A program made the position numbers and the translations under genes. DNA of 64,000 nucleotides from Anas platyrhynchos (lineage: Eukaryota; Chordata; Aves; Anseriformes; Anatidae): contig NC_092591.1 in the NCBI RefSeq assembly GCF_047663525.1, positions 34,319,001 to 34,383,000 on the forward strand, given 5' to 3'. Every line of letters begins with the position of its first letter. Position 1 is the stretch's first letter. Shown here in pieces: positions 752 through 49,313 of the stretch. The notes beneath the pieces were generated by a model. The model was not told the DNA's origin. It ran no database searches and saw only the letters and a list, made by a program, of their open reading frames with translations.

Positions 752-815
752 CTGAAGCTTCTTTCTTCATCTGTTTATTGTCTACCAGAACTTCCAAGCA
801 GGAAATTTCACGAGA
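752..815 (-). CDS. PLA2G4E-like: Gene C exon 7 (linker start)
   Basis: 64 nt, phase 0 to 1, encoding SREISCLEVLVDNKQ and then MKKEAS. Acceptor CTGCAG, donor GTTAGA. It is the last exon of gene C in the window; the next one (about 143-161 nt in A and B) was not found in bases 1-751. Confidence 0.88.
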
Positions 816-9800: not shown

Positions 9801-12800
9801 TTCTTACATTGGCCTCCCACATAATAGTAAATTACCTTAAGATTCTTGGCCCTTATCTGTAAGGTAATCAATGGCCTCAATTCAGCAAAAAGGTTGGCTG
9901 AAGCTCCTCTCTAGAGAACATCACTGATAAAAGTCCTCAAGGGCAAGGTTTTCCTTGGCACTGCTTCAGAGTCTTCGGGATAAACCTCCACAGGGACTCT
10001 GACATCCCACAAGCCATATCACATTGCTCTTCTAGCAAAAGGCTCACCTCAGCAGCATGCTTCATCTCATGCCTGTGAAGGAGCACTAAGAGCACACATG
10101 CATAAAACAAAGCCGCTCTCTGCTCAGCATGTACGGGAAGGAGTGAATCATTGATTACAGTATCAGTCACATTGCTTAATGCACAACTGGATGATCTGCA
10201 GATACTGTTGTCTTGATGAAACTGGAACAACCAGGACTGAATTAGAACAGATTCTGCAGGATCTTTAATAGTATGTAAGAAAATCTGTTGGTAATCAATG
10301 AACAAAAAATGTATTTTTCACATTAGAATACTGAAGGTAGGAAGTTGTACCTTCTTCTCATCAAAGGATTATCTCAGATATCTTGAAGCAAGTCCTGCAA
10401 TAAGTAAATATGTGTATCAATCTTCACGTTCTTTATGAACTTCTTGGAATGTGCCACATAACTAATAGTACTATAACAGATCTGCTGATATTCTAGTTGT
10501 GGCCACTGTTCAGTGTCAAACAAAGTATACTTTGTTCTTAAATGCAATACACTACTGTGCAATAGTAACAAGAATACAGAGTAAAAATATGATCATTATC
10601 AAAGATGATCAAAAATGCCAAGGTACAATAACTTTTAAGATGTGGGAGATGGTAAGCGTGGAAAAAGGCACTGCTCAGCTTAACTTCATAAGGACTGAGA
10701 AGGCATTACACAACTCAGCCCAAAGAAATTTATAAATACAGAATGTCTATTCAGAAATCAAAGCACATATGGCATTGCTATTATCTGTTAATAACACCTG
10801 AAGTTGCCTACATATGTTTGAAAGAAACTGAACACTAGTCTTGTGCTGTGTTTTCTATAAGCACAGCACTTCATAAAACATATCTCAGCTCTCGCTCAGA
10901 TGTCCATCCAGGTTTGCTGGAACTTTCCAAGCTCAAATATGAGCTTGTCATGTTTGAAACAAAGTCATCTGTCACAGCCTAAAGCTCTGCAATCTAAGTG
11001 GCGGAGAAAGAATGAAGGGCTATGAAGCTCTGTATAGACCTGTGACTTGTCAAAAAACATGGTTTGGTTCTACATTGCTGCCATTATCACCTACTCATTC
11101 CAGCCTCTCTTCTCCACCCAAGCTTCTCCCTTGTTCATTTCCATTGCCTCCGCCCTCTTCCAACCTGTTTTAAAACAGGTTTTGAGATTTAAAAAATTAT
11201 AAAACATTTCAAAGCCCATTTCAACTTCTCATTAGATAGGTATTTCCTCTGAACAAGAGGATAGTGAAGTCTACCAAGAGTATGTAGTACCACCACAAAA
11301 GATTTTCATAAGATCACCCCTGTTCAGTGGAAGACAACGGCTGCAGTACCACTTGTGCTGGTACAGTATTAGAGCATGGTAGCTGCTCCCAGCTTTCGCC
11401 TTTGAGACAGGGATGAGCCCGACACTTTTATCGAAAGTTGACTCCTTTCACCAGTCCTTCAGACACTAAACAGTTTATCCTTCTAATGCCCCTGTGAGGT
11501 ACCTAATACCCATTCTGCAGTCCTTAGTGTAGAGATGAGGAACCAATGCTCTGAGTAAAAACACTTTTTCCAAGACTACACCACTAGTCTACAGCAAGTC
11601 ATGAGGGAACATTGTATATAATACCTTTAACCACCAAAACAGCTTTCTATTCTTGCACACAGAAGGCACACAGAAGTCAGCATGGCTACAAGAAGATGGC
11701 CAGGTGCAATTAGTAGTTATGCAATTAGACCTTGATCCTGATCTGAACAGTTTTCATTTACAGTAAGAAAAGCCTTGCTTCAGGTATGACATCACAGGGA
11801 GGAGTTTCTGATGATCAGCAGTTGCTTCTTTTATCTGTTTTTGTTTCATTTTCTTAACCAATTAGAAAATCACTGTTTACAGGCCTTGTTGCAATTTTGT
11901 AGTTATCTACATAACTATTTCTCTGTCTTTGTTCAGGTACAAGCACTGACCTATTGTCAAGCATTTCTCTTAGGTTGCCTTTAGGATTTCTCTCAATGCA
12001 AACACGGCCCTCCTGAGGCGCTAGTAGCATGAGGAACCTAGATGAGATGTCTTACAGGGGCAGCAATGCTCTTAATCATAGGGCCACATTCGAGGATTTT
12101 CCTTAATCACAGCAAAAGTCAATGACCACATTCATTTTAACAGAAGACTGATTTCACCCTAAGGCATTAGTGCTGGCTGGCTCACACTATCTGCCTGCCT
12201 CACACTACAGCTGCTGCTGGCTTCTCACACTCATTAATACAGGCAGTGGAAAGGGTAAGAAGCAGTATATGCAGCTTGTTTAGCATGTCTTCAGTCATTC
12301 CTTTTCCTATCAAAGAGCTTCTTTTGGACAACACAGCAACTAAAGTCTTGCTATGGTGGGTTACCCAGGATTTAGATGATATAGGGAAAAAATTAGTAAT
12401 AATGCCTTTCAAGTCTTAAAATCAATGGTCACTGCAGTATTGTGAGTTTGTTATTGAAATGACACAGCAACAAGACAGATTTAGCACTACAGCAAAATAT
12501 AAAGACAAGTTTCATAATTTATGTAATGAAAACACTAATTGAGAATTAGGCTGTCATTTTAAAAATAAAATAAAAAAAAATAATATCACAGGTATTTCAG
12601 GAAACACTTTCTGGAACCTTTGCTAAATGCAAAGTAGCAAACATGGTATGGCAAACAGCCTCAATGAAAACAATATCAACAATGGGGAATTTCCACAGTA
12701 TGGGTCTAATTCCTGTTAGGCTGAAATGCAGTTGTACTTGGCTTGCAGAGAAGTCTTTCCAGAAAGAAATTCTTACAAGGTGGAAATGCAGGGTCCTGCA

Positions 12801-15800
12801 CAGAGGTGGCTTCAAAGGGGGCTGTGAAGAAATGAATGCAGGGACTTGAGGATGAAGGCTCAGCTCTCTCTTTTAAAGATCTTGGCTGGTGGATCAGCCC
12901 TTGACAAACAAGACTTTTGCAACAACTGATCTCTTCCTACACATGGTGGCAGCTTCTGAAATCCAAGCTCCACCACACCAACTGACAGAAAAAAAAACAC
13001 AAGGGAAGGTCACAGAAAGCCACTGGATGGAAGAACAAATTCAAGGCCTTTCAGAAGCAAAAGCCAAACTGATTTTGCCACTGCAAAGATGAGCGCTGAG
13101 ATAACAGCAAAGGTTTTTGTGACAAGGAAACCAGCCTGGACAAAGATTGTTGTTGATACATAAAGATTACATAGGCTCAAAAAGAGACTAGAAGAGTTGC
13201 TGCATTCATAGACATGCTGTTTGGCCTGGGATATCACCACATCTGAAGTGCTTGGAGGATGAGAGAACACTATACTGTTTCACCTTACTCTCATCCTCCT
13301 CCTGAGGCACCTGCCTTTGGCTGCTCTCAGACTTTAGCAGGATAGACCTTTGGTCAGATCCAGAGCAGCCGTTCCTGTCCCTTGTGCACTTTGATGGGAA
13401 TATAGGAATGTGGATAGGCCATGGGCCTCAGCCTGTGACTCCTGTACCTGGTGGTTCCTGCTGGCTACAGTTAACAGCTAACTCTTCTCCCAACAGCAGC
13501 AGCAGTGTCAGCTCTTCTCTGCCAGGAGAAAACAGGCATGGCCATGTACCTGCCCCTAGGAATGTGTCGCATCTCCCTGTTTTGCCTGTGTTTCAAGCCA
13601 GCCTGTTTGGATGACGGATGTTCAAACTTCAGGCAGTTAAACACATTTATCCACACACTATCCTGTACAGCTGCAGAGAAATTGCACCATCCAGACAGCG
13701 AATCCAGATTCTGCTGGAGCAGTGGGTATGTTTGTGACAGCCACAAAGCTTTCACGGTTTAAAAACAAGAGATAGTTGCAGCTATGCAGCTGTTAATGTT
13801 AAGTTGTCTTCCGGTTCTGGAATAAATGCAAGGGTGCAATTGTTTTGTGTGAGAGAGAGCCCTAAATAATATGTAGAAAAGGTCTTTTCAGGCCAGACAG
13901 AAAATATCAGAATTTCTCTAGAAGGCATTTCTGCTGCCCAAGCAAGGCAAATAAGATTAGAAATAAGAATAATAATAATATCCATAACTATTTAATTGCA
14001 ATATAAGCATACAGACCACCCCAAAGAATACCACTAAATCAGGAGCCAGACCTTGTGAGACACAGATCTCTTGGGAGATCTGTGGGAGAGTGGTGTGGTG
14101 AAAAGCATGCCTTAGTGTTTCTCCTGTCCAGAAGCATCTGCTGTAGGCCACTTCTGAGGACTACAGAACCAGATGAACCTTTGGGCTGGTCTAGTATCAC
14201 CATTATTACAACTTTTTATGGAAGAACTTTAGCTAAACTCAAATATGTCCAGAAATTGGGATGCCAATGTCTTGGGAATTATGTGTACTACTTAGACTGT
14301 AGTTGCCTGATATCCTACATATGTTGGAGCAAATTCTGATTCATGAGTAAGCCTTACTCATATCAGATTTCAACACACATTAGTAGCCTAATTCTTGTTA
14401 TTATGCTCACACCACATACAAATATGACCTTTTGTTTGACACAAAAGGAAAAACCTAGGCAATCACGATCATAGTTAATTGACATAGATATCCTGTAATA
14501 TAAAAACAAATCCTCTGTTATACAACTTGTGCAAGATTTAAGGAGGCAAAGATGCTGTGGGTAGCAGCTCCTCTGCACAGAGGAGGACACGGGCTCTCCT
14601 TTATCTGTACAGTGCCACAGAGCAAGAAAATCAAAGCATACTTGTCTTTGACACATGGTCTTCCAAAAACTACATTTTGGCCTAATCCAACTGACTCCAT
14701 CAAAGCACAGATAGGTTTTTCAGCTTGAACTACTTCTGCTCCCTCTTTCAACTCTGTCACCAACACCCTCTCTCTTAACAACTTTAAATTATACAAAAAT
14801 AGTAAATAAACCAAATAACTGTAAATGGGAAATACAACCATTGTTTTATGCTTTTCCTAAAATATGTTTTGTTTGAAATGTTTAAAATACTTACAAATAT
14901 GTGAGTAAAGTTGTGAATTACATGAGAAATACATTCCCACAAAAACTATTTTCCAAAATAATAAATAAGCAAAGAATAATCCTAAACTTGAAATTATTTG
15001 TAATTTTATTTAGAGATGCTACTGTTAGTCTTATGGATCTATAAAGTAAAAAAAAAAAAAAAAAAGTTTTTTTTTTTTTACTCAGTTTCAGTTTGCTTTT
15101 TAACAGTGAATAATTTCTCATTTATTGACCTTTAACAACACATACTAGCCTTTTAAAATGGTGAGCAAAACCTTTGAGGCCAGTCCAATATTTTTTTGGA
15201 AAGCCATGTGGTCTCCATGGAAGCAAATATTCTTGCTGAGTTCACTTGGGTTTACTTACTATGTAAAGATACATATTCACTTCCTTCTTGCTACATTCCT
15301 GCCTTGTGTCTTCTCTCTGAGACAGATTTGAGTTGTCCCATCAGCTTGGTTTGTCCTACATGAGCAACCACTGAGATTTTTTCTTTTCTACTCTCACCCA
15401 CTACACCAACCCCCCAGAAACATTTCAGTCATATTGTTTTTGCTTTACAGGCCTGGTATTTCAAATGCATTTCAGTAAACCATTCACAGAAAAAGTTGTT
15501 TGACAATAAGCCATATAATGCCTTTTTTTTTTTAAATAAGATATAGAAATATAGATGTGCCTGAATGTACTTCTACTGCCTGCAAAAGACAGACAGATGG
15601 TAGCAGAGCTCCTCATATTACCCCACAGCCTGTAGCAGCCACTCATCATCAGTGCTGGCATTTTCATCCAGAAGCAGGGGCACAGCCTGTATCACAGCAC
15701 GTCAGACACTGTAACTGACACTTACTTTTTAACAGTTAAGACACTTCACAGTATACCACGGCTGACTTTTGGTATTTCCATTAAGTGTAACACTTCTATA

Positions 15801-17270
15801 AACTGAAAGGTATTGTTTATAAAAGAGTGTATTTTAAGAATAGCACATATTCAAACATGGAACAATATCTGAAACCATGGTGACACTTTGTACACAGATA
15901 CATGTTACAGTGCTCGGTTAGCCTTACTGCTTTCTGAACTGAACTACTATCAAAGAAAAACTGTGATACTCACACAGATCTGCCTTTCTCAGATTTCTCA
16001 TCCTTATGACTTTTACAGAGAGGGAGCTGCATGGACATTCTTCACACTGCAGAAATATGACAAAACAAATAGTCGCATAAACATTAAATGGTTTATGCTT
16101 CATAAAGCATGCACTCCCATAAGAGTTTGTTGCACTTTTTAACACCATGCAGCAAAATTGGAAGACTGGTTCTCCTGCCCTCTATCACTAAGAAACCTCT
16201 AGCTTTACTCATTCTCATGGGGCTGTTTTATTGGTTAAGGACAGGGGGGAAGAGCAGAAAGGATGAGGGGCCCCATTCCACCATGCTTTGAGCACATTTC
16301 TCCCACGTGAAGACCATTGCAAGATTCTGTTCATTACTGTCCTGTCCTTTTGAAATGATAAACCTATAGATTCATAGGGTTTCTTTAATCACTTTGCTTA
16401 CACTTTCACTCTGCTTGTTTGTTAAGCCATGGAGGTCCCACACTGGAGGTCTCTGAGCCCTTCATTGGTTTCAATGAACACTTTTGCTAACATATCCCTG
16501 TTATGCAGAAATGCTCTGTAATTTCCATTTTAGAGCTAATGAAGATGACCACAGAATGATTAAGTAACTCATTCATAGTCAGACAGCAAGTTAATTTCAG
16601 AGCTGAGGAAAGGACAGAGCATGAGACTTTCTGAAGCCCAATAGAGAGTTTTGTGTCTTTCCCTGCCTATGTTCCACCAAAGGAGAGGAAGGAAAAAAAA
16701 AAAGAAAAAAAAAAAAGAAAAAGAAAAAAAAAAAGAAAAAGAATTCACAGTCCAAGATTTTCTTGGGTGTCAGCCATGCACAAACGTCAAACTAGTTCTA
16801 TCTTTGTGTCTGTGATTAACTACTGTTGTAAGTCTGTGACTCTCCTATGTAAACCACTACCAGGTGGCTGCTAGCACAGCTACCTAGGCACAGCAAACGA
16901 CAATACTCATAGCTGACAAATGCTGTGCTGAGAAAGACCCCAACATGCTTACATCAAACCACAGATTCAGCCCAGATCCTCAGCAAATTTCTGTGAGAAA
17001 CATCGGACTTCTTCCCAACCTCTGTGTGGGTCACCCAGTGCAGCTGATTTTTTCTCCACCACCAAAAATGCCTCCACAGGGATGTTAGTACCAGCAAAGC
17101 CATAGGTCTGCCTGACATAAATAAATACATGCATAAAGTTGGACTAACAGCTCCTGAGACCTATTCTAGACACCAGAATCCCAGTCACAAACACACCCCA
17201 GGTCATCTTCAGCTTGTAATGAATTTTAGTCTGAATTTCTTACCTCACGAGCACTCCAGTAGGATCCCAT
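752..17270 (-). CDS. PLA2G4E-like: Gene C: PLA2G4E-like cytosolic phospholipase A2, 5' part (exons 1-7)
   Basis: Seven coding exons run leftward: 17244-17270, 15974-16046, 6203-6339, 3208-3339, 1947-1987, 1478-1520 and 752-815. They join in frame for 517 nt and the gene continues past the left edge. Lengths and phases match gene B exons 1-7 one for one. The product seen is an N-terminal C2 domain. CBR1 shows an ADLFSQTDCYV pattern, with Asp at the positions of two calcium ligands of cPLA2 C2 domains, and CBR3 shows YDEN. The linker begins at SREISCLEV. In this family the C2 domain docks the enzyme on membranes when calcium rises, and the catalytic half would follow outside the window. The chosen start ATG has A at -3 and G at +4. 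The long second intron (6340-15973) matches a long second intron in gene B. Whether the full gene is functional cannot be judged here. Confidence 0.88.
1478..1520 (-). CDS. PLA2G4E-like: Gene C exon 6
   Basis: 43 nt, phase 2 to 0, encoding PVPPESLVNNGVLV. It aligns with [14 protein letters not shown] of gene B. Acceptor TTTCAG, donor GTAATT. Confidence 0.87.
1947..1987 (-). CDS. PLA2G4E-like: Gene C exon 5 (C2 domain end)
   Basis: 41-nt micro-exon, phase 0 to 2, encoding TQELLEVEFASES. It aligns with [13 protein letters not shown] of gene B. Acceptor TTACAG, donor GTGAGT. Confidence 0.87.
2073..2172 (-). mobile_element. CR1: CR1 LINE 3'-end fragment
   Basis: Begins with repeated ATCATAGA units, then GTTGGAAGGGACCC and a CCAAGTCCAAC-like block. 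This is the reverse complement of the avian CR1 3' end. It lies in gene C intron 5-4 and is 5' truncated. Confidence 0.85.
2186..2286. repeat. 34-bp minisatellite, about 3 copies, palindrome-rich
   Basis: Tandem units start at 2186, 2220 and 2254. Each contains the self-complementary blocks AGATCT and CTATATATATAG; CTTAAG and further AGATCT sites recur at the ends. The third copy is interrupted. It lies just beyond the CR1 fragment in a gene C intron. Confidence 0.9.
3208..3339 (-). CDS. PLA2G4E-like: Gene C exon 4 (C2 domain)
   Basis: 132 nt, phase 0 to 0. Encodes NVLELKVYDENAITKDD and then LLFTVLFDVAKIQLGE. DEN lies at the CBR3 calcium-binding loop. Acceptor TCACAG, donor GTGAGG. Confidence 0.93.
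4886..5296 (-). other. 136-codon open frame of unknown origin in a gene C intron
   Basis: This is the longest minus-strand frame in the window not explained by PLA2G4 exons or CR1. It lies between gene C exons 4 and 3, has no recognised motif, and has no splice context that fits the gene. It may be chance or an old repeat. Confidence 0.25.
6203..6339 (-). CDS. PLA2G4E-like: Gene C exon 3 (C2 domain)
   Basis: 137 nt, phase 1 to 0. Encodes [18 protein letters not shown] and ends WNETFCFRIQSQVK, a classic cPLA2 C2 signature. Acceptor ATACAG, donor GTAAGA. The usual DPYV of cPLA2 C2 domains reads DCYV. Confidence 0.93.
6340..15973. other. Intron 2 of gene C (9.6 kb), no gene seen
   Basis: Long AT-rich intron with poly-A tracts (near 6344-6366 and 6627-6646) and an A/T inverted repeat (15045-15082). 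No frame in it resembles a protein family I recognise. Intron 2 of gene B is also the longest of its gene. Confidence 0.7.
15045..15082. repeat. A18-G-T13 inverted repeat
   Basis: AGTAAA, a run of 18 A, one G, a run of 13 T, then TTTACT. The flanks extend the symmetry, giving a near-perfect hairpin in gene C intron 2. Confidence 0.9.
15974..16046 (-). CDS. PLA2G4E-like: Gene C exon 2 (C2 domain start)
   Basis: 73 nt, phase 0 to 1, acceptor CTGCAG and donor GTGAGT. Encodes CEECPCSSLSVKVIRMRN followed by LRKADL, the first C2 strand and the CBR1 Asp. Confidence 0.9.
16679..16743. repeat. 65-nt all-purine tract
   Basis: An uninterrupted A/G run made of GA4-12 units, in gene C intron 1 (between exons 1 and 2). 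Such tracts can form triplex DNA and are usually variable in length. Confidence 0.9.
17244..17270 (-). CDS. PLA2G4E-like: Gene C exon 1 (27 nt, start codon)
   Basis: Encodes MGSYWSARE and ends in phase 0 at a strong donor (GAG|GTAAGAA). The ATG has A at -3 and G at +4. It was picked because gene B has a first exon of the same length, phase and donor type (MGVFYSTSQ) at the corresponding place. There is no independent transcript evidence. Confidence 0.7.
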
Positions 17271-21060: not shown

Positions 21061-21299
21061 TCAACCAGAGGCCTGTGCTTGTGATACTGGATGGCTCAGA
21101 GCTTGTTTCTTCCGTGCCACCGCCATGCGCAAGGCTTGAAGAATCATGTTCTCATTGTTCATTATGTTGTAATTAGTCAGCCTCTGAAGTTTGTTGAAAT
21201 CTTCTGCTTTCAGGGAGACCTCTCTCGTTGAGTACGGAGAGCAGAAACTGGAGAGATCAATCTTGCCCTGTTCCATTTCTGCAGCACTACGAGCCATAC
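21061..21299 (-). CDS. PLA2G4E-like: Gene B exon 20 (C-terminus, stop)
   Basis: 239 nt of coding sequence from acceptor TGACAG to a TGA at 21061-21063. Encodes [18 protein letters not shown] and [18 protein letters not shown]. It is ten residues longer than the gene A terminus. An ATTAAA (minus strand) lies about 19 nt past the stop at 21037-21042. Confidence 0.93.
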
Positions 21300-21518: not shown

Positions 21519-24500
21519 AGAGAGAGAGAGGGAGAGAGAAAAAAAAATGCATCACTACATTCCATTGCAATCAGCACCGTCTACTGGCCAACTCACGGCA
21601 TGACATTTTCATTTTTTGAGAGTTCACAGGTCACCAAGTCATACCATGAGGGTTCTTGAGTAGAATATATACTAATGGTAAAAGGAATAATGAGATGTAC
21701 AGCACAGGAGGAGGCAGAATATTAGTAGCCTTGGAAATCATAATAAAAACAAAGGCAGTATCTCAAACAGTGGTCCAAAAGAACACTGTGACTGCATTTA
21801 TTAAGTCTTAGTTTACATACTATTGCTTTGATTTCCCAGCATATACAATCAACGTGTTAAACAGTGTAAACAGAAAGCACAGTGGGCCTCCACAGATCTA
21901 TACTCTAAAGATAATTCTTCCTAGATCTGAATGTCATAAAAATATGTATCTGAAAACTAGGCTTTGTTCTACACCCTAAAATAAAATTTTGGAAATCACA
22001 AGGTGAAATTAGATCCCATTCCTCTACTTGAGAAACACATTTCTTCTTTCACTGAACTGCACCAAGATTCAAACTAAAATTATGCCCAAGATTTCACTGA
22101 TTTTGCAAATAATTTGAGCCATCCCCTTTTGCAATGTATTCACCAGTATGTATTGGGTTAAAGAAGAAACTCTCAGGAAGTAAAGAGGTTAATTGGGTCA
22201 ATAAAACAGCTGGGTAATGCTAACTTACCAGGTGCTACGCATCTTTGGAAGGTGTCATTCACTAGTGGAAAATAAAGCAGGAGAGGAGCTCCTGGAGTGT
22301 CTGCACCATCGAACATGTAGCATTCCTTCAGGTTCTTCTCATCATCCTTCAGCTCAATGTTGGGAAATGCAATTCCCTGCTCTGAGAAGTAACTGCAAGC
22401 CTGCTTTAGAGGCTGGTCAGTGCCCAACAGCAGCAGAGTAAGAAATGGAAAAGATACACAAGATCAGGCTGCTGCTTAATTCATGCTAAGCTGCATAAAA
22501 TAGCCTGATAGCATTGGAAGGTTAGAGATAATGTGAGAACCTGCAGTCTCTAGTTCTTCTCTTGCCTAAGGAACTTTTTGAAAATAAACATGCAGGAAAA
22601 CACATGATATTAAGTTGGTAAAGAAGATTTTAGATCAGTACCAAGGCACATCTTTAAAATGGAAATATGATTTAGGAACAGAACAGGTAATTTGAAAGAT
22701 TGTTAAAGAGCATCATAAATTAAAGGAGAACTAAGAAAAATTTGCATCTAAACAAAACTAAATTTTCAGTCCAAGACAGTAAGGATTTTCAGTCATGTTA
22801 CCTGTCTATACAGCATTTATAATTTGTAAATTGACTTCAATAGATTTTAGCAGGGTTTTGAGATCAACTTCCCCATTTAAAATTTTGATTTTCAGAAATA
22901 ATATGAAATTTCAAGCTAACATATTTTAAGAGTATTAAACTTCAAAATATAACACTAAAAGCATTTATCACAAAGCTCGTTTGTGATGATGAAACTTTGC
23001 TAAATTATGTGACAAAACACTGAAGCACCACCGTTTTTTACGTGAATTAAATATTTCCAAAAGAGTTCAGACTACCAGAAGGAAATGCAGTATGAGTTAC
23101 TACATGTGGTGTTTTTTTCAGCTACAGTACAGAGACAAAAAATTTTCATGTGGCATTACAGTGTAAGAGCAGCATGAGAGTATCATCCACTTGTAAAATA
23201 ACGACAGATTCTTAACCAGTGAACTTCATATTTTCTATGGTGCCTTTCAGGAGCAGGTTTACAATTACAAGTATGCATTTGGAAGTCTAAATTTGTCTTC
23301 TTAAGTGGTAAATACCATCTCTGAAATCTATGTAGCCATTTTATAATCAGATTTTTTCAAACATAGCAAATGCATTTGATGTTTTGCTTCAAGCTCACTG
23401 CATTAGGAGAAAAAATGCATTCATAAAAAAAAAAAAAAAAAAAAAAAGACAAAATTCTTGACTCTCTAGGTTGTTCTTGGACAGCTAAAAACCACATTTA
23501 AAAAATTAAAAGAGAAATAAAAAATTACACATTTAAGGAAAATGCAGAATAAATTATACATATGAATCACAGAAAAATCTTTTCCAGCTACATTTGTGCT
23601 ATAAAATCTTATGTTAAATTGTAATGGAAGTTGCAGCTTAACCATAATAATTTCATTGTGCCACTCTGCACTTTATTGGTGAAGCAGAGATCTCTGAGTA
23701 TTTCATTTAGTATTCTTTCAAAAGTGATTTGAGGAAAAAAATGGAGTTGTTCTTCCCTCTGGGAATTTCCATTCTTCTTCTAAGGCTTGGAAACACCATT
23801 TTACTAGGTTCTGCTGATAACATTCTACAGACACCTATCTGAAAGCTGAAGAAATTAAAGGAAAAGCCATTATTAAAGTAATTTTTGTGACTTCTCACCA
23901 AGGTCTGTGATCCACCTGTGTAATTTAAGTGTATGATGACATCCACTTTCCTCTCTGGTCTCATTAGGGGTGGACAGCTGGTTTCAAAGAAGAAAGCTGC
24001 GTCCACCAGCTCCAGGTGCTCCGAGTTGCCTCTCAGGTCATTAGGAGAGGTGTCTAGTGAGGTGTCTAAAGAGTGACAGATTTGGAGTTATTTACAAACA
24101 GCAGAAAGACACCTGTCAAGTTAGAAAACAAAAGAAAGGCAAGCTTTTCTCCCATGCAGGAATTTCCCTTCATTTTTGGATATCATGCAACAATCCTAAA
24201 GCTTCCTTCAGCCTCTCTACTCACATTTTATCAGTCTTTCCAAGCCCATAAGCTGCACCAAACCAACGGCAGGTTTTCTATATGCAAAGTCCCATCCCAA
24301 TGATTTTTATTTCAGGAAGGACTGTCAGTACCAAATCACCCCAAAACTGAACAGTCCTGTTACTGGAAGTGAGGGATGTAAGGAGTTACTTCATTTTCCC
24401 TCTCTTTTCTTTCATCAAAGAATAACAGTGGACCACAAAATCCATTCTGTTTTCTGCAGGATTTACAAACATCCCACATCTGAATTCCAACCCCTGTGCC

Positions 24501-27500
24501 CGCTCAGATGAGCCACTATGGCTCATGAGCAGAAGTGCTGTCTACACCTTTCCATTTTGCAAAATGCTCGTGCTGGATGTACTCGTTGTGCATCTGGAAG
24601 CCCCTCAGGAAGTTGTGGTACTTGGAGACAGCAGGGCGGTCCGTCAGGATATCCCGGAGAGTTGTGGAGAGGCCACTGGTAGGAGTGAACATGCAGGTAG
24701 CCATCTCGTAGGGCTTCTCAGGCAAGTCCGGTTGTTCCTCTAGAGGTACATGGCATAAATTACACACAACTAAATTATAGTCACAATTAAGATGTGAACC
24801 AGATGCAAAGAAGAGAAAGGATCAATGACTTTTCCAACAGTAGTAACAATATATTTAGAGCTCTTTGTGTTCACCTTTTTAAAGGCTGGACCTGAAAGTT
24901 GCTGAGCATCAGCATCAGCAAAAAGTGTTTGTTCCAGTGTTTGACCACCCTCACAGTAAATAATTTTTTCCTTATTTATGTTTTTCCTTAGTCTGAACAT
25001 CCTGTAGTGCAGCTCTTCCCATTCACATGTATCCTGACATCAGTTACCAGGGAGCAAAGACTGGCACCTCCCTCTCCACTTCCTCTCACAAGGAAGTTGT
25101 AGAGAGTTATTTTGCCTTATGGTCTGCAGTGAGTTCCAGACAATTGTTTGATAAAACATAAACTCACTTTTGTTTTCTAAACCGCGATTGGTCATATTTG
25201 ATTGAAGTAGCATTTTTCTCATAAAACAAGAGGATTTTGGTAGACATCAAAACAATTCAGTTTTCCAAGCAAACAAAAAGCTAGTAAAATCATTTCATTT
25301 ATAAATTTGAAAAGGTTACTGGTTTTAGATTGGGCTAAATTTGAAATTTTAAGCTTATTTTGAAAAGAAAACTTGAATATTTTTAAATAAAATGTTTTGA
25401 CTTAAAACACAGTTTGTTCAGTTTGGTTTGCACATCTGAATTCAACTCAAATTTGCAATTTATATAAACCCAAATATAGTTGTTTTGTTTTGTTTTGTTT
25501 TTCCCAAAATAAACATAGCCCACAGAAATGCCACATGAGTCCATTCAACATGAAACCACTGATTTCACTTGAATTTTAACAATGAAGTTGCTCATGGGTA
25601 TTTTCAAGGAATGGTCTTTCAGTCCTGAGCTGCCCTTCTCAGCTGGCATAATAAAGCTCTACTACACTGATTTCCTTGGACCTCTGATAAATCTTGCAGT
25701 TCAGTCAGATTTTGAGGGAAGTATACACAATGCAGAGGGAACAGAAACTGAAGGAAAAAAAACAAAACTCTCAAGCTGCTCAACAAATAGAGATGCCATG
25801 AGGCTTTGATTGAAGCAATTCTTCCCAAAAGTATTTTAACTCAGCACTTTAGAGATCATGTTATATAGCCATCCTTATCTTCTTTCCATCAAGGTCTGTC
25901 TGATAGTGCCTTACCTTCTAATACAAATCTCACTAATGCCAGTCTCAGATTAAGCAAAACACTGGCTATTCAGTAACATCAAAGCACTTAATTTTCCCAG
26001 TACTTTCCCTAACCCAAGACTGAGAGCACCAGGCTGACAGATGAACACAAAACATGGGAAATGTGAGTGCAATTACTGTGTCAGAGGTATGTTATTTCAT
26101 CCCGTATCAGAGGGGCCTGGAGAAGGGAGGCCATAATTCAAAAGGCACTGGAGATTTACCGATTTCAGTCACTTTGTCTTGGGTCCATCTGTGCCAGAAG
26201 TCCTCTGAATTATCAGCTGCATGCCAGGCATCCAAGAGGTTTTTGGAGAAGATACTACTCCACATTCCTAGGAAGTCAGAGATGGATAATGAGCAGTAGT
26301 GAGGTAAACACAAGGAACTGATTTATAAATAAATAAATAAATAAATAAACAAATAAATCTCCTGCCTTCTGCTCCTTTCACAGCACTTTTCTAACTTCTT
26401 CTTTTATTAATTTCTTTCCAACTTTTACATAAGACTAGACATCTATTTCAGTGATAGACTGACAGACTTGACTCAGAATGCAAATTCATAAGAAATTTTA
26501 GTTATTTTCCTCCCACCTTGTTTTACCTAGAATGACATATGTTTTGATAAACACTGCACTATTTTCCTATTTTCATTTCCTTTTCCTTTCTATAGTGAAA
26601 TATTTTCAACCAGCTCATTCACTGATTCCCCTCCCTCATGTTCTATTTATTTCTTATTACTACCCTCAGCTTTCTCAAAGTTTCATAGACTTTCAACTTT
26701 TAAAAGGTTTTGCACTTTAAGGTCAATGGTGATGTTTCAAACACACTTGCAAAGGTACATAACTTCTCTTTTTTAGTTTCATTTTCATAGCCCCAGTGAT
26801 AAAGCTAGCTGGGCAGATGAGTGAATTTCAGGAGACATGCTGAATGTAACTGACTGGGATACTGAACCACTTCTGACATGACCCAGTACCTCTGCTACCA
26901 CACGCAGGACAATGGTTTGCTATTGATTAATTTCCAGAATCATTGGTGTTTGTATGAAATTCTTTTTCAATCCCCCAGGCTGGTGAGTCACCTTGCATGA
27001 AGCAGATCCGGGACTCAGGGAGCTTCTTCATCAGGCGACCCATGAAAAACTCGCTGCCAAAATCCTCTGCACGAATGAAGGCACCATACTTCAGGAAGCC
27101 CACCTCGTATGGCGTGAACTCCACCCACTCTGCCAACACACATGCCAATAATGTTAGTTCCAGTAACCAAGGGAAAAAAATGCTACTAAAAACAGCAATG
27201 TCAATAGACAGTGAGTGAACCTTTCAAGTGTCAGCTCTTGGAAATGGGCTGGTTTAGCTCATGCCCAAAGCAAACCGTGCTGACTGCTCCCTCTCAGGTC
27301 CAGTAGGCAATTGAACCCGCTGTTGCACTTTCCACAAGGTTGTGAAAAAAATAAAGTGAGGGCTAAGAGAAAATTTAAGTTTATTTTTATCTAGCAAGCG
27401 GGAAGCTTTCTCATGGAAGGTGGACTGGAATTCAGTCTGGCTTCTATTGCATTTATTGCCTTTAGCCAGTCATGAAAAATATACATTAAGTGAACTTAAA

Positions 27501-30500
27501 GCTTCTGTGAATCACTTTCTTTAACAATTCATAGTGTTTATGAGGCAGTGTCATGGATCTATGTCATGTTAGCAGTCTGAAGTTAATGTCTAAATATGCA
27601 CACTTAATGTGATGGGATTTTACAAAACCTTAAAGTGTTGCTGTCGACCCTATGGCTTCCCAGCTATTGTTTACATCTCTCAAGAGGACTTATGCCTTGG
27701 GCAAGAATTTAAAATGATCTGTCATTCTTTACAAGATCTATACCTATGTTAAAACACAGCTCTTTTCCCAGAATTGAAACATTACCTCTAAAATCTTTGG
27801 TAGCAACTTTGTCCTTGACATTGAGAGCAAGGTAGATGGGCAGTGGATTCTGGCCCTGACTCACTGCCCGACGTTGATCAGAAAGTCTGTGGTAGCATTT
27901 CTGGATTTAAAAAAAAAAAAAAAAAAAAAGTTTGCCAATCAGTTCCATAAAGACATCAGTAAATATGGGATGTTATTTATCTGAATTTCCTCCTAGATTT
28001 ATTTCCATACGTCCAATAAACAGAGGACAAGAAAATCATGGGAGTAGGAATAACTCTCACTAACAAAAAGAGCTATGTTCTATATTCAGTGTACGGCACC
28101 AGTAATGAAGTGCTTCACATGATCTCCTAGCTTTGTATTGTCAAATGTAAGTGAAAAAAACAAACATGGCAGATCTAGCTAATTCTGCTATTATGATATA
28201 CTTCATCTATTTGACGTGAGTTCTTCAAGGCAGCATGTTAATGATGGTTCTAATCAAGAATTTTATTGAAACTCATACTGAAGTTTAATATTCCCAGAGG
28301 GAAAATTCCCTGTGCTGCCCAATACTAATGGCTTATGTTATACATGAAATTGATATTTTGAGTGTACTTACGTCAAATGAAATATTAACACATTTTGCTA
28401 GGAAGCACTGAGGCCAGAAACACACTGTGAAATCTGATACGAAGTGGCAGTACTTTTTTTTTTTTTCCTTTTTTCACTTGGACAAAATATAAACCATTTT
28501 TTATGGGATTTTAAAATAAAATAGCTTTTTCTCCAGTTAACATCAGACTGCAAGTTTACATGGAAACTTTTGCATTTGTCATTACAACAGCATTAGAAAG
28601 GAGCAGTCCTGAGAGACCAAATCAAAAGCAGCTGAAAGGCACTGCAAAATGACAGTTCCTCAGCAAAGATCTCTCAGGAGCTCTGGATCTATACTCTAGC
28701 ACTAATTCAGCAACTACATAGGGGGGTACATCTGCAGTACATTCAATGTGTGACTTGTATAAACACTGCAAACATTGCAGCAGCAGAGACATCAAATGTA
28801 GGGCTATAAAAAACAACTAAGAATCCTGAAAAAATCGTGGACAGCTACAAATGTTAACTAGTATGCCAGTTACTTTAGAGCTAGTCTAAGCATTTCTGTT
28901 ACATTTAGTCACACTTTAGGCTTTACTGTAGACATACACTGCATCTCCAAGTTATTAATGTAAATAGATACTCTGCCTGCATACCAAGTATAGTGTTATT
29001 AGCCAGGCACTTCTTCCTAGGGTTTTATTTTCTTGTAATAATCATAAGGATCATGTCACCAACTTTATGAGAAGAAAGGTGAATAGACATTACCCCATCA
29101 TTTAACATGGATTCAATCATGAGTCCCCACAGATCAATAAAAGATGTCTTATGTCCTGCTTGGGTCCTTTGGCTCAGCTCTCTGTAATAATTCCTCAGAC
29201 TTCTCAAGGAAAAAGCACCCATCTTGCACTTGGTTGCTTGCTTCCGAGCTTCAATAATTACTTCTCCGAGATCCTTACGTGACCAATCTGCATCTTCATA
29301 CAGTTTGGTCATGGTCCTTTAAGCAGGAAATGCGATGGGGAGGGGAAAGAAATGAAGATGATGGCTTTAAAACTGAGAGGATATATTTTGCAGAGCTTTG
29401 GGCACTTCTTATTGTTTTAGCTATAGGTCACTCCCCTACTTTGAGCTTACTTTGAACAGAAATGCAAATCTAAAGGCAATAAATCATAACCTCTTGATCT
29501 GGAAGCCAACACAAACAGCTGCACCAGCTGTCTATGTTGTTTTTGTCCAACAGTAACTAAGCATACAGGATAATTTTGCATTGGATTAAGGATTTCTGCA
29601 CTACCAGTAAAGTCTCATATTTTAATTAGGGATAGATTACTTCAGAGATACCAAATATCACTGAGGGGGAGTGGAGAGGCAGGCACTAATCTCTGTTCTC
29701 TGGGGACAGCAACAGGACCTAAGGGAATGGCATGGAGCTGGAACAGGGGAGGGTCAGGCTTGGTGTTAGGAAGACATTCATCACCAAGAGGGTGGTTGGG
29801 CACTGACACAGGCTCCCCAAGACAGTAGTCACAGCACTGAGCCTGTTGGAGTTCAAGAAGTGTTTGGACAACACCCTCAGAAACATGGTCTGATTTTGGG
29901 GTGGTTCTGTGTGGAACCAGGAGTTGGACTCGATGATCCTTGTGGGTCCCTTCTAATTTAGGATATGCTGTGATTCTATGATGACTCTGTGAAAAATGTG
30001 GTGCATAACAGGCCTTTCAAGGCCTATTATGAAGGCCCTGGCATTCACAGGCCTTATATGGAAGCAGTAACTCGTGACCTTTTACCCTTGCTGAGATCTA
30101 AAAGCCTAGACAAAGCATGAGTTTTGCTTCACATAGTATCTCAACAATAGTATCAAAATGATTCCTCACCATGTTGTGCCAGATGAGCCACTGATGTATG
30201 AAATGCAATCCAGAACACGCAACTTTTGAAGACCCAAAATGCTGCCATACATGGCAGTGAGTGCTCTTATTCCACACCCTGCTGTTGTCACAGCCACTAT
30301 CGGCACCTGTTCAACACAAAGAAAAGGACATGAAGCACGGGTGGAAAAGTGACATCAAGGGACATTCACATCAAAAGAAGGCAGATGTGAAAATGCAACA
30401 TCCAGATGCTAGTAAAATAAAACACATGGATTAGAGATAAAGCAATTTTGCTCTATAAGCTATAAGGAATGTGAGTTTCTGGCCACCTTGTGGAATATAT

Positions 30501-32136
30501 TTAAACATTTGTGCACTTCATGAAAGATTTTTAAGAAAGATGGACAAGAATCATGGTTTGAAGTTCATTTAAATGATCATTTGAAAGCCAAATGGAAATA
30601 GAGAATTTGCTCATCCAGATTGCTGAGCAATCCAGCTCAGATCACCCTGGATGCAAACAGGGCCCAGGAGAAGGAGCTTCTGACATAGGTCCTCATGCCT
30701 CATCTAGACAGAGGGGAGAAAACACTCCTGTTGCCATCTCCAGGCCCAAGGGAAAGAAGAGAGAAAAAAATCCCACAGCAGTGCCTTTCCCAGCTACCTC
30801 GTGGTCTTGCAGGTCTTCCTCTAGATGAAGAACATCCTTCAGTGCAGCAGCAACCACCCTCCTCCGGTTTTGCAGGAAATTCTGTTCATCCGCGCACAGG
30901 TCAAACCCCAGGCGGGCATCTAGGTTTCTTGGCCTGAAACACAGACCCTGGGTCCTGAGACCAGGGCACCAACATTATATATTACTACTTGCTGTGGTCA
31001 ACTCTAGTTGCGCTTGTGTGTATGTTTACAAACTGGTTAATGGACAACATAATGTAATAAATGAGAAAGAGCAACACCACAGACAGGCCTCTGCTAATTG
31101 CTGTAGCTGCTACCAAGAATGCAAATGGGAATGCAGGGCAGAACATGACGTACTGCTGTGGTATTCGAATGAGGTACCTACAGCACGTTTCTGGTTTTGT
31201 TTGCTCATATAATTGATTTTTCAAGTTTCAGCAGTGCCTACCATATGTGCCTGTAACTAGGTAACTGCTGTCAACAGCCACCATGGTTAACTAGGAAAAC
31301 AGCTACCACACCTTGTCTTTATTTTGTTGGTATTATACAGAAATATTATTTCTGTGCAGAACTACTGTCTCCATCTGTGGGCATAATAGTGAACACAAAC
31401 TGAGACCTACTTGCTTAAGTGCAGTACCAGCTCAGAAACTTGGAGGAAAAGGGACCCGCAATATAGTTATCCATCACTGACTAAGGAGAACCTGGCAATC
31501 AAAAGCCTGAGACCAGAAGTGGAACACATCTCTGCTTACCAAGGTCTGAGTCTTTATGACCCCTGCTGATTTCAAATGAGCTTTGTGTACTTGCAAATGT
31601 CTCCCAGTTACAGTATAAGGCGTTGCTGGAGACTCACTTACCATTCGTTTGCCTTTACATACAAGTCGATTGTCTTGTCCTGAAAATAGCAAATGAAACA
31701 ATGTAAGCATGCTCAGGTCATTAATCCTGCATATTCCTCCGCCACACCATCTATAGGCTGAGTTTTACTCTTTTTGCTGCTGTATGTGGTCAAGCAATGA
31801 ATGGCCTGGGTTATGAGGTATGTAACAGGCTCCGGTGCAATCTGAGCTGGATAGAAGCATAGCCCCTCAGTTTTCCACAAATGAACACGTAGTTTGCCCT
31901 TTGTTTTCTAAGAAGCTCATTAAAAGCTGAACACCTGAACCACAGGCATGTGGATGTTCTGTTTTGCCTTCTGCTTCAGACTTCTCCCTTGCAAATTATC
32001 AGTATTAAATGTCACATATACTGTTAGCTCACATACAGTGTTGATAAACGTATTAGATATTCCTTTAATAAATTAGTTTCAACTCAGGACAGGGTTGAAC
32101 AGCATGCCTGGAACCACATGCATAACAAAAGCCAAC

Positions 32137-32193
<57 letters not shown>

Positions 32194-35100
32194 TTGCATA
32201 GCTATACTGTCACTGACAGTTATTCACAGTTTATAACTGCAGCATGTGTTGTACCTGACTGGATCCAAGTCACTGGAGTGTAAAATTCACATCACCCACC
32301 AAAATGAGAATGTATTGGGATGGAGTTTTATTAATAACTCACTTCTCACCTGTGCTACTGTTATTTTCTCTTGTATAGGAAGCAAGTTCAGAGCTACAGT
32401 CACAGACTCGTTCATATCCCTTTCATTTTGGCTTGATATAGACTGGAGAAAAAAAAATAATAATAATGAGGAGAGTTACACAAAAGACAAAAAGAAGTAA
32501 AAAGCAGTCTCCCCAGCCTCACATACATTCATTCACTTACCAATTCCCTGCATACACAGACCTCAGAGGTTCCCAAAGAAGCACACAGCAAAGAGCCATC
32601 TGCCCATTAGGGGTGACCACGTACCCTGCTGAGCAGCCTCCGCCGCGGCAGCGCCACAGCCAGCGCTGACTGGTGGTATTTGATGTAGTGGAACCTGGCT
32701 GGTGAAGTTGGGCACAGGCAGGAGCTCAGTGTGTGGGTCCGGGTCCCTTCATATGAGCCATCCACCGTTAGTGCAAATTTCCTCTCTGAAGGGATGACAG
32801 AAAAAACATCCTCATATCCTCACAAACAGGCCTCGCTTTCTGAAATACCCAAAACCACTGTGTATGTCTGTCCACACTTCTTAGCTATAAGAATATTCCA
32901 TCTTGTGGGGACCTGAGCTCCACCAGTGCTCACTAAATTCACCACAGACTGCAAGTAATTTATGTTGGGGGCTATGAAGGTGTTTCAAATTTAAGTCCTT
33001 CCAAAAAATGTGGTTTGCAGTATGAAAGTATCCCTTCTTTGCACCACAGCATGTGAAGTTGGAGCCATCGAGAGATGCCAGAGCACAATGTCTTAAAAAT
33101 TGCTTAGGAAATACACAGGTCCACAAGCGTAGGCTTAACACAATACCGATGTGCTACTTAAAATGTGCAACAGGTACTTTTGGTAATATATTGTGTGCAT
33201 CTCATGTTTCATCTAGTGGCACATTTTATTTTGTTACACCTAAAGAAATGTTTAAAAGTGAAATTGAGCAAGAGAGGCTCAGTCCTTATCTTGCCCATTT
33301 TCTTTTTCTCTGAATCCAGAAACAGGATTTTGCTCCATTTGAGGACTTAGAAAATTTCAACACCCTTCACAAATAATTTGGAAAGTTATAAGCATCTGAC
33401 AAGATATTATTATAGGGGAAAGTCTTCTGCAGGAAAACCAGACAACAAGCTCATCAGGCTGCACTCTGCAATTATCTCTGTGGTTTTGATCAATTACAGC
33501 CCCCTCCAGTCACTGACATTGCTGAGATTTTGCTTTGCATTGTCAACCATTTTGAACCAGAGAGTTCAAGGGTAAAATGCTGAGCACTTTTACCATAAAG
33601 CAGCCTACAGATTTTCTCTGTAAGTCAGCGAAGGCTCACCTGTGCTATCCTTCCTCATCTTGCCACCATTCACCTGCACATCTAGACAGGAAACTTCACG
33701 GGACTGGAAGAAATGATCAGAGAAAGAGAAAAGGCATTTGCTGCTGGTCAAGCCTGACCTCAGCCAAACCTCTATTCACATGCCCAGGCTGATGCCAGGC
33801 TGTCACCCCTCCACCAGGTCAAGGGAAGTGGCATTTGGCATCAGGAAAAAGGGCCCAGGGGAAGGGGTGCAGGGTGGGCACCCCAAGGAGAATGCTCAGC
33901 TTGGTTGTTCCCACGCAAAGGGGGATGATCTTCCACCCCAGTCCTGCTCAGTTTGGGCAGAGGCGAGCACTAGAGGCAGCTGCGGCCTCTCCCAGCCTGA
34001 GTCACCAGTGGGAATTGCTGGCACCAGCATTTGCCTGCTCCATGTCCAATGCCTCCATGCCACTCTATGGAGCAACTGCGCAGCACCTTTAATCCTGGTT
34101 CTGCAATAAGCATGGCCATACAGCAGGGAAAGAGTTAGGAAATAAAAATTACCACTAAGACGCCATTAGTAATAATGTTTTCAGGAGGATCCGGACTAAA
34201 AGACAAAATGGAAAACAATTAGTTCACAACTAGCACTCTCCCGGTGGTTTTTTTTGTTTGTTTGTTTGTTTTTGTTTTGTTTTTTTTTTTTTTTCTTTCT
34301 TTCATTATCTTTAAAAGCCTATCTTTGGATATGCAACATGAGTAAACAGCATATGAAATTCTAGCTGGACACTTGGTCCAATTTGCCTCTCTGAGGCTGA
34401 ACATTAAGCCTGGGTACTGTATTTATGGAGAGCTGCTGAACAGAGGAGCTCCTTGTTGCATCAGACAGGATCATTTTCTGACACAAAAGTACAGGAATGG
34501 CAGAATTAGATTATTGCCCTATATTGCTGGGCAATCAGTACTGAAAAGCTGGTGAATTCATCCAACTTACAACAGAAGCACTAGGACTGATTTTCTTTCA
34601 CATTCTCTCCATTAAAAGTACAGTCAGCATAGAAACAGGGTAAAAAATATTTGTAAATCTATACCCACAACTCAGATTTCAAGTATTTTTGCACATTCTT
34701 GTGACAAAGCAAACATCTGGGACAGACATCACAGGAAGGAGCAGGAGGGGTGTAAAACTTAAAACATCCTCCTGCACAGAGTGCCCCCTGCAGCCTGGCA
34801 AGCAGCAGCAATCAGGAGACATCTCCATGCCTCTCTCATTGCCTGTCCTAGCTCTTCAGTGTCTGGGTGCCTGGTATGGATTCACCCCTTCTCTGCTAAA
34901 TGCACAAGCATTTCCTGAACACACAAATTTCCCTCTAGTTTATTCAGACTATGACAGTGTTAGGAGGGGCTGCAAGCATAAACAGATGTTTTGTATATCA
35001 GAAGCATTTGTTTGCTTGCATTTCTGTTGATTGACTCACCTGCTCTCCATTGTGAATTCAACCTCCAGCTCCTCTTTTCCCTGGGAAAGAAAATGAATTA

Positions 35101-38100
35101 AGTCACTGCATGTGGATTCCTCTGTGCTGAAAAACACCCTACAGGAATCTGTGCTTCTCAGGGAACTGGCTCCAAGCCAGTGTCCACCTTTAGTAACTTC
35201 ACACACCACAGATTTCATTTTCTTTGCGTTTTATCTGTTATACTTCATATTACATACTTCTGATGTCATAGCCATTATATCGGCAGGCTTCTAGTTGACA
35301 CTTTGTAAGCCAAACATATTGCAGGATCTCTTGACAGTTTCTCTGCCTTTCCACAATCTTAGATTCACCCTCTACTGCTTCACAGGCCACCTGCAATTCC
35401 TCTTTCCTGCTCACAAGCTCTCAGTGCTCCCCACTAATTCTCAGCATCACCAAGACTGAATTTCTCTGGTGCATACAAATCATCCTGCCTCTCTCCCAAG
35501 CCTCACCCACAACCTGAGCAAATGGGCCTGGTGGCTCATTAACATGGCAGCACAGCTGGTCATGCAAAGCCCAGGGTGTTCTGGAGAATGAACTTTGGTT
35601 ATGAAGTCAAGACCACTATTTTTTATATCAGTTGGACATGAGTCACAGCTCAAAACCATGAGCTCCAACTGCAAAGGAAAGCCTAAAGCTCTCAACATTT
35701 TGACATCAAGTAGAGCAACCAAACAAGCATGATAATGTCGGCCAACTCTATCTGTAAAAGCAGCACCCAAAATTTACTGTAATTACTGAGGCAAAACTGG
35801 GCACCAACCCCTGAAATAGATGGGCATATTCAGATGACTAAATCGACAGTAGGAAAGGCCTCTATTCTGGGCAGGTGAGATGAAAGCTGAGAAAACCACA
35901 TTCTTGCTTGACCATGTCCCCTTAGCTTTGTCTTTAAATTTTATCCCTACCTGTGGATTCAGCTGGAAACTTAGCTGAATGTTTTCTCCAAGCTGGATTT
36001 TGGAAACATCAAAGAAAACAGTAAGGAGGTGGTCATCTTGTGTCATGTTGTCCTCATCACAAACTTTCAGCTCCAGAATGTTCTGGGAACAGAAAAAATA
36101 GATTGTATGAGATTTAACAAATATAAGATGCTACAGTTACTTCCGTTCAGCTGGAGGAATTTGGGTTAGAAGTTTAAGAAGGAATGCAAAGGAAACAATA
36201 AAATAGAAGTTTTGCAGTTATTCTCTACAGGCTCCATTGACTGTGCAGGAATACACAGTCTTATGCATGTATCAAAAGCTAAATAACTGCAGTTAGACAG
36301 TATGAATACTTCACAAAGAAACTCAGGAAGACCCACAGTGTGGGAAGCTATGGTACCATTTCATGTCTGGTAAGAAAAATGACTTTTAGGCAGGGAAGGG
36401 GGCATCTGGACCTTCAGCCTGACCATCAGGAGGTGGGTAGAAGGCAAATGCCAACTGTCAGGGATAGCTGCGGTTCCTACCTTAACCTGGCTCTGAATCG
36501 TGAAGTGGAAGGTCTCATTCCACGTTGGGTTCTTCGTGTTTGGAATCGTTTTGGTGCGGAAATGCTGCACTGAGGCTGTTGGCAGGCTCAGGCTCACGTA
36601 GCAGTCAGACTGGGTTACTGCAGAAGAGAAGGGAAGCGTGAAAGCAATGGACCAGTGGGCCACATTTAGTAGCCCGTAAGCTGTGGCACTGTATGAATTT
36701 TTAAGCTCTGTACACAGCACAATATGCAGAATGTGAGCTGGGATCCTAGATAAGGTGCCATCAAGTCAATGCTGTACAGCCAAGCTGACTTCACCCTTTG
36801 TGAAATCCTAGCATTTTTCTCTTCTTGAGAGCTACCTCTTTTCATTGTGGGAAAAGTAACAGTGAAAATAATGGGCCATGCCTTAACGTTTCTGGGGTAG
36901 CTCTGGCTGTAAGTTCTGTCCTGTCTACTTTTCAGAGTATCCTTTCTTTCCTCTAGCACATCTGGCTGCCAACACATTGGCAGTGAAAGCTATTTGCACT
37001 GAAGGTTCTTATGAAGGACCACTGCTGTCAGAGGACACGTCTCTGCTGAGGCACCTTATCTCTGGCTCCCTTCTTCCCTTTGGAAGATTAAAGGGAACAT
37101 ATACACTGTGAGAGTTCAACAACAGAGCCTTTCAATAAAAGATGTATATATTCCTTCAGAGGAAATAAATTGTATTTAATCCTTTGTGAAGTGGATTAAA
37201 ATAAGCACACGGAAGAAAGGAATTGGAAATATTGAGCAGTTTGAAGGTATAGCACTTGTTTTAAGAAGCTGTCCTGAAGGAGAGTTTTAGCCAGTAAAGC
37301 TCTATTAAAGTATTTTTAATGTCAACTCCACCTTTGTGCCTCAGAGTAGTAATGACATTTGCAATATTATGTACAGATGAAAAAGCTTGTCTGTGCTTCC
37401 CAGACCATACTGAGATGCTGCTGCTGCTTTGCACAAGATTGCATTGCTTTTGCTTTGTTGTTTCAATTAAGGGTGTGTTCAAGTCATAAAGTTCACCTAT
37501 GAATTTGAATGTGCCCAGTTGCTAAGTGGGGCAAACTTTATGGTTTTCATTTTCCTTTCCCTGATGAAGAGGTTAGCTGTGAAGTTTGGCTTCCCACATG
37601 AGCTCCTTCATAAGTGAGGAATATTTAGGACCAAGGCTTAAGAATGAAACAGTGTTTAGCAGCTGTCTGCAGTGGTTAGATCATCAATGAGCACTTTCAT
37701 TCTGAAGTCAGAATAATCTGCCTGTGAATGCTTTTTGTCATAGTCATTAAGCAATAAAATGCAAATGTGAATCATGAGATAAGCAATCCTTTGGATTCAC
37801 ACTCCAGGGTCCAGGATGACCACCATACACAATATATATATATATATTTTTTTTTTGTTAGGAGCAATAACTTATGCAAGTACCAGATGGAGTAGTGCCC
37901 AAAAATGTAAATCCCATCATCAGCATTGCTATATGTATGTCTCTTCCAACCAAGACAATTCTGTGATTCTGTGATTTAGCATTGTCCCACTTAGTTTTAT
38001 CAGGGGGTCTGACTTTTGGGAAACACCTTGGCCCCTTAGTGCACTCTATGTGTAACTGAAGAATTAACAAAGACATTTTATTTATTTTTTTGATGATTCC

Positions 38101-49104: not shown

Positions 49105-49313
49105 CTAATAGTTTCTCTGCTTCCTCCGTGCCACTGCCATGCGCAAGGCCCGAATAATCAACTTCTCATTATTCAGGACATTGTAATCAGTCAGCTTCAC
49201 CAGTTTGTCAAAATTCTCTTCACTGAAGCACACCTCCCTTGTTGTAAATGGGGAGAGAATCGTGGAGACATCAACTTTGCCTTCAGACATCTCTTCAGGG
49301 CTCCTTTCCACAC
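49105..49313 (-). CDS. PLA2G4E-like: Gene A exon 20 (C-terminus, stop)
   Basis: 209 nt from acceptor CCTCAG to TAG. Encodes [18 protein letters not shown] and [15 protein letters not shown] possible ATTAAA poly(A) signal (minus strand) lies at 49035-49040, about 65 nt past the stop. Confidence 0.94.

Follow-up and report, generated by a model that had tools for sequence, protein, structure and literature searches.

Has the active site of an avian cytosolic phospholipase A2 (cPLA2) gene been rewritten? This question is raised by the middle one of three same-family genes, all on the minus strand, that lie in a stretch of 64,000 nucleotides of the Anas platyrhynchos genome (contig NC_092591.1, here C5, positions 34319001-34383000). 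This stretch is the window, to which coordinates refer unless C5 is stated; gene A lies to the right, gene B in the middle and the first exons of gene C to the left. A reading made from the sequence alone had reported AGCGIR, GSSGTT, and VDAAFF at the three active-site motifs of gene B, and had claimed that three supporting positions had changed together. The letters were borne out, since translation of the minus strand gives AGCGIR and GSSGTT in an open frame at 30170-30306 and VDAAFF at 23899-24065. The joint change was not: the oxyanion loop alone is in a form private to gene B, and the forms of the other two motifs are common to its relatives. Gene B is an intact avian PLA2G4E-like copy whose product is probably an active serine lipase or transacylase, recruited by calcium and with one swap in its loop.

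A genome search with part of gene B returned at least 70 matches, including exons from nine C5 copies and from one C8 copy, and matches at three places on C28. The nine C5 copies (F, E, D, C, B, A, Z, Y, and W) were modelled exon by exon, the C8 and C28 copies being left out, and were aligned with human PLA2G4D (cPLA2-delta, PDB 5IXC) to give ten sequences. The exon finder rejects any exon that is not open and close to its template in length, and part of the openness of the paralog frames is thus built in. It missed exon 8 in both F and E, in Y exon 1 as well as exons 6 to 8, and in W all exons before 11 and after 18; gene W is located ~280 kb from gene B on the opposite strand.

The third motif has the form D-x-G in five of the ten sequences (E, D, A, with VDTGFF, Y, and W) and D-x-A in the other five (F, C, B, Z, and human PLA2G4D). 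The nucleophile elbow reads GLS in five (F, E, D, A, and Z), GSS in two (B and C), GIS in two (Y and human PLA2G4D), and GAS in W. The loop is GGG in 8/10, with G-C-G in B and A-G-G in Z; the corresponding motifs of cPLA2-alpha are SGGGFR, GLSG, and VDSG. In cPLA2-alpha numbering, counted along alignments to 1CJY, the gene B loop is Ala195-Gly196-Cys197-Gly198-Ile199-Arg200, followed by the nucleophile Ser228 and the base Asp549. Ser and Asp are thus kept, as had been noted, and so is Arg200. Position 195 is Ala in gene B only (the remaining nine have Thr or Ser) and position 199, which varies across the family, is Ile only in gene B, whereas Cys197 is the single change in the loop at an otherwise invariant place. 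The GGG loop is altered as described, but by the loss of just one of its three glycines, the middle one. The apparent three-way change arose because gene B had been compared with gene A alone, which is a biased yardstick for the elbow and the Asp motif. Coordinated rewriting of the active site was rejected, since relatives show the same states at two of the three motifs. Furthermore, D-x-A is one of two accepted forms of the Asp motif, which a patatin review writes as 'DGA/G' (PMC12871566), and the active human PLA2G4D reads VDAAYF.

Paralogs Z and D depart from the family at active-site places comparable to those of gene B. Paralog Z (C5:34434183-34453950, outside the window) combines its A-G-G loop with GLSA for GLSG in an open gene; two glycines are lost, which on this count makes it more aberrant than gene B. 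In paralog D (C5:34266378-34289268), Lys replaces Arg200, and there are nine private departures at otherwise invariant columns, more than in any other of the close copies (F, E, C, B, A, and Z).

The gene B model comprises 19 exons that run from 44249 down to 21061 and encode 806 residues followed by one stop codon. Its boundaries were set at AG/GT sites by homology; independent support comes from the frame and the similarity, both of which are kept throughout. The previously reported count of 20 exons with GT-AG sites agrees with the model in that all 18 introns have GT and AG ends, but the twentieth exon is tentative, namely, an optional first exon of 27 bases with weak similarity between paralogs. 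The span of 23899-30306 that had been assigned to gene B covers exons 11 to 17 and not the whole gene. The features of gene B are as follows.

45791 to 45817, minus strand: tentative first coding exon (MGVFYSTSQ), with the same length and donor (AGGTAAGA) as the gene C candidate.
44177 to 44249, minus strand: exon 1, start of the C2 domain (paralog homology, AG/GT sites, Pfam C2).
36481 to 36617, minus strand: exon 2, C2 domain (paralog homology, AG/GT sites, Pfam).
35951 to 36082, minus strand: exon 3, C2 domain (paralog homology, AG/GT sites, Pfam).
35040 to 35080, minus strand: exon 4 (exon model).
34153 to 34195, minus strand: exon 5 (paralog homology, exon model).
33640 to 33703, minus strand: exon 6, cPLA2_C2 linker domain (homology, exon model, Pfam).
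32625 to 32785, minus strand: exon 7, cPLA2_C2 linker domain (homology, exon model, Pfam).
32350 to 32442, minus strand: exon 8, linker (homology, exon model).
31642 to 31679, minus strand: exon 9, linker (homology, exon model).
30798 to 30933, minus strand: exon 10, with its 3' end under a goose forward primer (exon model, primer match).
30170 to 30306, minus strand: exon 11, with the AGCGIR loop and the GSSG elbow, exon 12 of the sequence-only reading (translation, alignment).
29094 to 29316, minus strand: exon 12 (exon model).
27786 to 27900, minus strand: exon 13 (exon model).
26992 to 27129, minus strand: exon 14, the catalytic exon with the strongest conservation in the family (exon model, alignment).
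26160 to 26267, minus strand: exon 15 (exon model).
24548 to 24739, minus strand: exon 16 (exon model).
23899 to 24065, minus strand: exon 17, with VDAAFF and Asp549 kept, exon 18 of the sequence-only reading (translation, alignment).
22229 to 22412, minus strand: exon 18 (exon model).
21061 to 21299, minus strand: exon 19 and stop codon (exon model).

These data bear on whether gene B is a decaying pseudogene, or whether its motif codons reflect an assembly error. Its 806 codons are open, its splice sites are usable, and no frame break was found. On a tree made up of paralogs only, the ratio of nonsynonymous to synonymous substitution rates (dN/dS) for the gene B branch was 0.254, against a background of 0.253, as an average over a long branch in which a recent loss could be missed; a value of 1 was rejected (likelihood ratio test, 53.1), and a refit under another parameterisation gave the same result. 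The proposed check of the branch ratio thus revealed no approach to 1.

Evidence from a second species came from the quantitative PCR primers for goose 'epsilon-like-2', a transcript measured in granulosa cells with a listed product of 143 bp (PMC12788666). Both primers are a perfect match to the gene B model and match none of the eight remaining C5 models (W being without exon 10). The forward primer bridges exons 10 and 11, the I-S-G-S-S-G codons lie under the reverse primer, and the predicted gene B product is likewise 143 bp. Because the primers match exactly across the junction and predict this product, the goose ortholog transcript very probably shares this splice and the GSSG elbow; the Cys197 codon lies between the primers and is covered by neither. 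Of the set of 26 primers in that article, seven gave a result, three of them an exact match (the gene B pair and the Z forward primer). The Z reverse, DGKI-F, and DGKQ-R primers matched with one mismatch, and NEU2-F showed only two-mismatch matches, the same as the control; the duck studied here is thus probably distinct from that goose. The counterpart of the goose epsilon-like-1 pair is gene Z, with a single mismatch and a product of 129 bp, as listed. No point in favor of a pseudogene or an assembly error was found, and either is extremely improbable; the earlier view that gene B is not a decaying pseudogene stands.

The reading of gene B as a relaxed copy was rejected, since its two private departures from otherwise invariant columns are the fewest of the ten sequences; the other nine have 3 to 18, gap positions uncounted. 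The listing of 23 departures for gene W counts the gaps of missing exons, with 3 true changes over a shorter length. Exon 14 of gene B and that of gene C (C5:34313114-34313251) share 43 of 45 residues and agree at 8 of 16 fourfold sites. Gene conversion was ruled out, as the intron flanks are no closer than shuffles; this likeness reflects constraint, because fourfold sites and flanks diverge. As a separate observation, the branch of gene E (C5:34245255-34259639) had a dN/dS of 0.153 versus 0.266 for the rest (p 0.004, uncorrected), and the constraint on gene E may be stronger than on any other copy.

Gene B belongs, as an intact copy, to the avian cluster of PLA2G4E/D-like cytosolic phospholipases A2. 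Its protein has a C2 domain at the N terminus (PF00168, 70.2 bits; Pfam cut-off 22), a cPLA2_C2 linker domain (PF18695, 91.7 bits; cut-off 26.8), and a PLA2_B catalytic domain (PF01735, 91.1 bits; cut-off 23), and scores 535.6 bits against human PLA2G4D; an NCBIfam search with part of its catalytic half gave no match. The residues expected of group IV cPLA2s are present, namely, Ser in GxSG, the dyad Asp, and Arg200. The loop fits the form G-x-G-x-R (G-C-G-I-R), the strict G-G-G form being absent in B and in paralog Z. On this basis, the C2 domain would bring the protein to membranes, and we infer a dependence on calcium. Ser228 would attack the phospholipid ester with Asp549 as base, the G-C-G loop would hold the oxyanion through its backbone NH groups, and Arg200 would hold the phosphate.

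Loops outside the cPLA2s bear on whether Cys197 is compatible with catalysis. A Pfam Patatin search revealed at least five Patatin exons in the same genome, four of which show the loop: G-G-G (L031), G-S-G (L032), A-C-G (L033, on C1, which we take to be PNPLA4), and G-C-G (L034). The latter locus (C5:46255792) reads SFAGCGFLG...GASAG, and we take it to be PNPLA2/ATGL from its sequence, its Pfam Patatin match, and the location of the chicken gene. Its A-G-C-G loop is like that of gene B, at the same place and with nearly the same spacing to the nucleophile (32 residues from Cys to Ser, and 31 in gene B; the Gly-to-Ser spacing of gene A is also 31). It differs from gene B in its Patatin family, in FLG rather than IRA after the loop, and in having no Arg. 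ATGL is not known to have a C2 domain. By this analogy, the Cys swap of gene B appears unusual but precedented; it keeps a backbone NH and is probably tolerated. Chicken PNPLA2 is located on chromosome 5, and the same paper writes the patatin loop consensus as (G/A)XGXXG, in which any residue may stand in the middle place (PMC2435558).

Several points weigh against an active enzyme with a harmless swap, in addition to the averaging of dN/dS mentioned above. The analogy spans to a distant family without Arg200, through a locus whose ATGL label is provisional. Cys197 has no precedent among the group IV sequences compared here, position 197 being Gly in the nine sequences aligned with gene B and in cPLA2-alpha, and Ala195 is also private to gene B. 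A literature search of limited breadth met no description of Cys at this position in a cPLA2. Moreover, the oxyanion hole of cPLA2-alpha has been assigned to Gly197/Gly198 (PMC5539244). Gly197, with its place in the hole and its invariance in the nine other aligned sequences, is also what speaks for a lipid-binding pseudoenzyme, in which the Cys would block the hole and gene B would only bind membranes. The sequence-only reading had offered such a protein, for which we obtained no positive evidence: Ser, Asp, and Arg are kept, so that no dyad residue is lost, departures from invariant columns are just two, the branch dN/dS equals that of the family, and a Cys occupies the same place in the locus read as ATGL. 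Furthermore, the ATGL hole has been modelled as Gly14-Phe17, and it is argued that Ala at Gly14, Gly16, or Gly19, which are flanking positions and not the middle one, could still present the NH (PMC3198459). We therefore consider a pseudoenzyme very unlikely.

Another reading is an active gene B with a changed specificity, in which Ala195, Cys197, and Ile199 reshape the loop for another acyl donor or acceptor, for example neutral lipids. In its favor, the loop is the sole catalytic motif in a private state, with three letters found only in gene B, a cluster of divergent copies is a usual setting for specialisation, and the A-G-C-G letters are the same as those of L034. However, the phosphate-holding Arg200 is kept, unlike in L034, the branch dN/dS is not raised, and position 199 varies widely in the family. 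Such a change, and with it the use of a new substrate by gene B, is rather unlikely. A related idea, which we rate as distinctly unlikely, is that a Cys near the nucleophile Ser is itself functional and tunes the acyl donor or acceptor, or confers sensitivity to oxidation or acylation. If true, a bird cPLA2 would combine the scaffold of a phospholipase with loop chemistry like that of ATGL.

The remaining features of the window concern its neighbouring genes and repeats.

49105 to 62946, minus strand: gene A, a paralog next to gene B, with exons 5 to 19 of its model within the window (homology, exon model).
752 to 16046, minus strand: gene C, neighbouring paralog, first six modelled exons, with its catalytic exons left of the window (homology, exon model).

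The gene A model has GC donors (GCAC and GCAA) at 51653 and 58008, at the ends of its exons 16 and 10, which are either real GC-AG introns or slightly misplaced boundaries. Five mutually similar dispersed repeats (2073-2162, 29708-29983, 43620-43761, 47822-48082, and 52845-53030) are presumably CR1-type avian elements. An Rfam scan of the window gave no match at the gathering score. Elsewhere in the genome, C28 showed similar PLA2_B exon matches at 4314834, 4467499, and 4583396, two of them with identical scores, which are possibly recent duplicates of another cPLA2 gene.

Among known systems, human PLA2G4D is 45.9% identical to gene B over exons 10 to 19 and has a like third motif, but differs in TGGGAR versus AGCGIR and GISG versus GSSG. 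PLA2G4D is active; the phospholipase activity of the mouse enzyme was lost on replacement of Ser by Ala, and transacylase activity was reported (PMC11621493). PLA2G4E (cPLA2-epsilon), the namesake of the avian copies, is a calcium-dependent N-acyltransferase with a C2 domain and a Ser-Asp dyad (PMC11989323), both also present in gene B; it was compared through its published description. The avian PLA2G4EL genes are multi-copy, like the family of gene B, and are linked to it here through the goose primers. Names in use include PLA2G4EL5 and EL6 in chicken (PMC10666442) and EL2, EL3, EL4, and EL7 in crested ibis (PMC7356354).

The avian PLA2G4EL family is of modest importance. Members are listed as upregulated in breeding-season ibis skin (PMC7356354), as differing between two populations of chick scale keratinocytes (PMC8742010), and as lowered in co-cultured goose granulosa cells (PMC12788666), reports that concern members and not the activity of any single copy. 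For such a family, a comparison of two paralogs is a trap, in which family-wide variation looks like coordinated change. Taken together, our data remove a likely false lead, that of a rewritten or dead cPLA2, and put one testable residue in its place.

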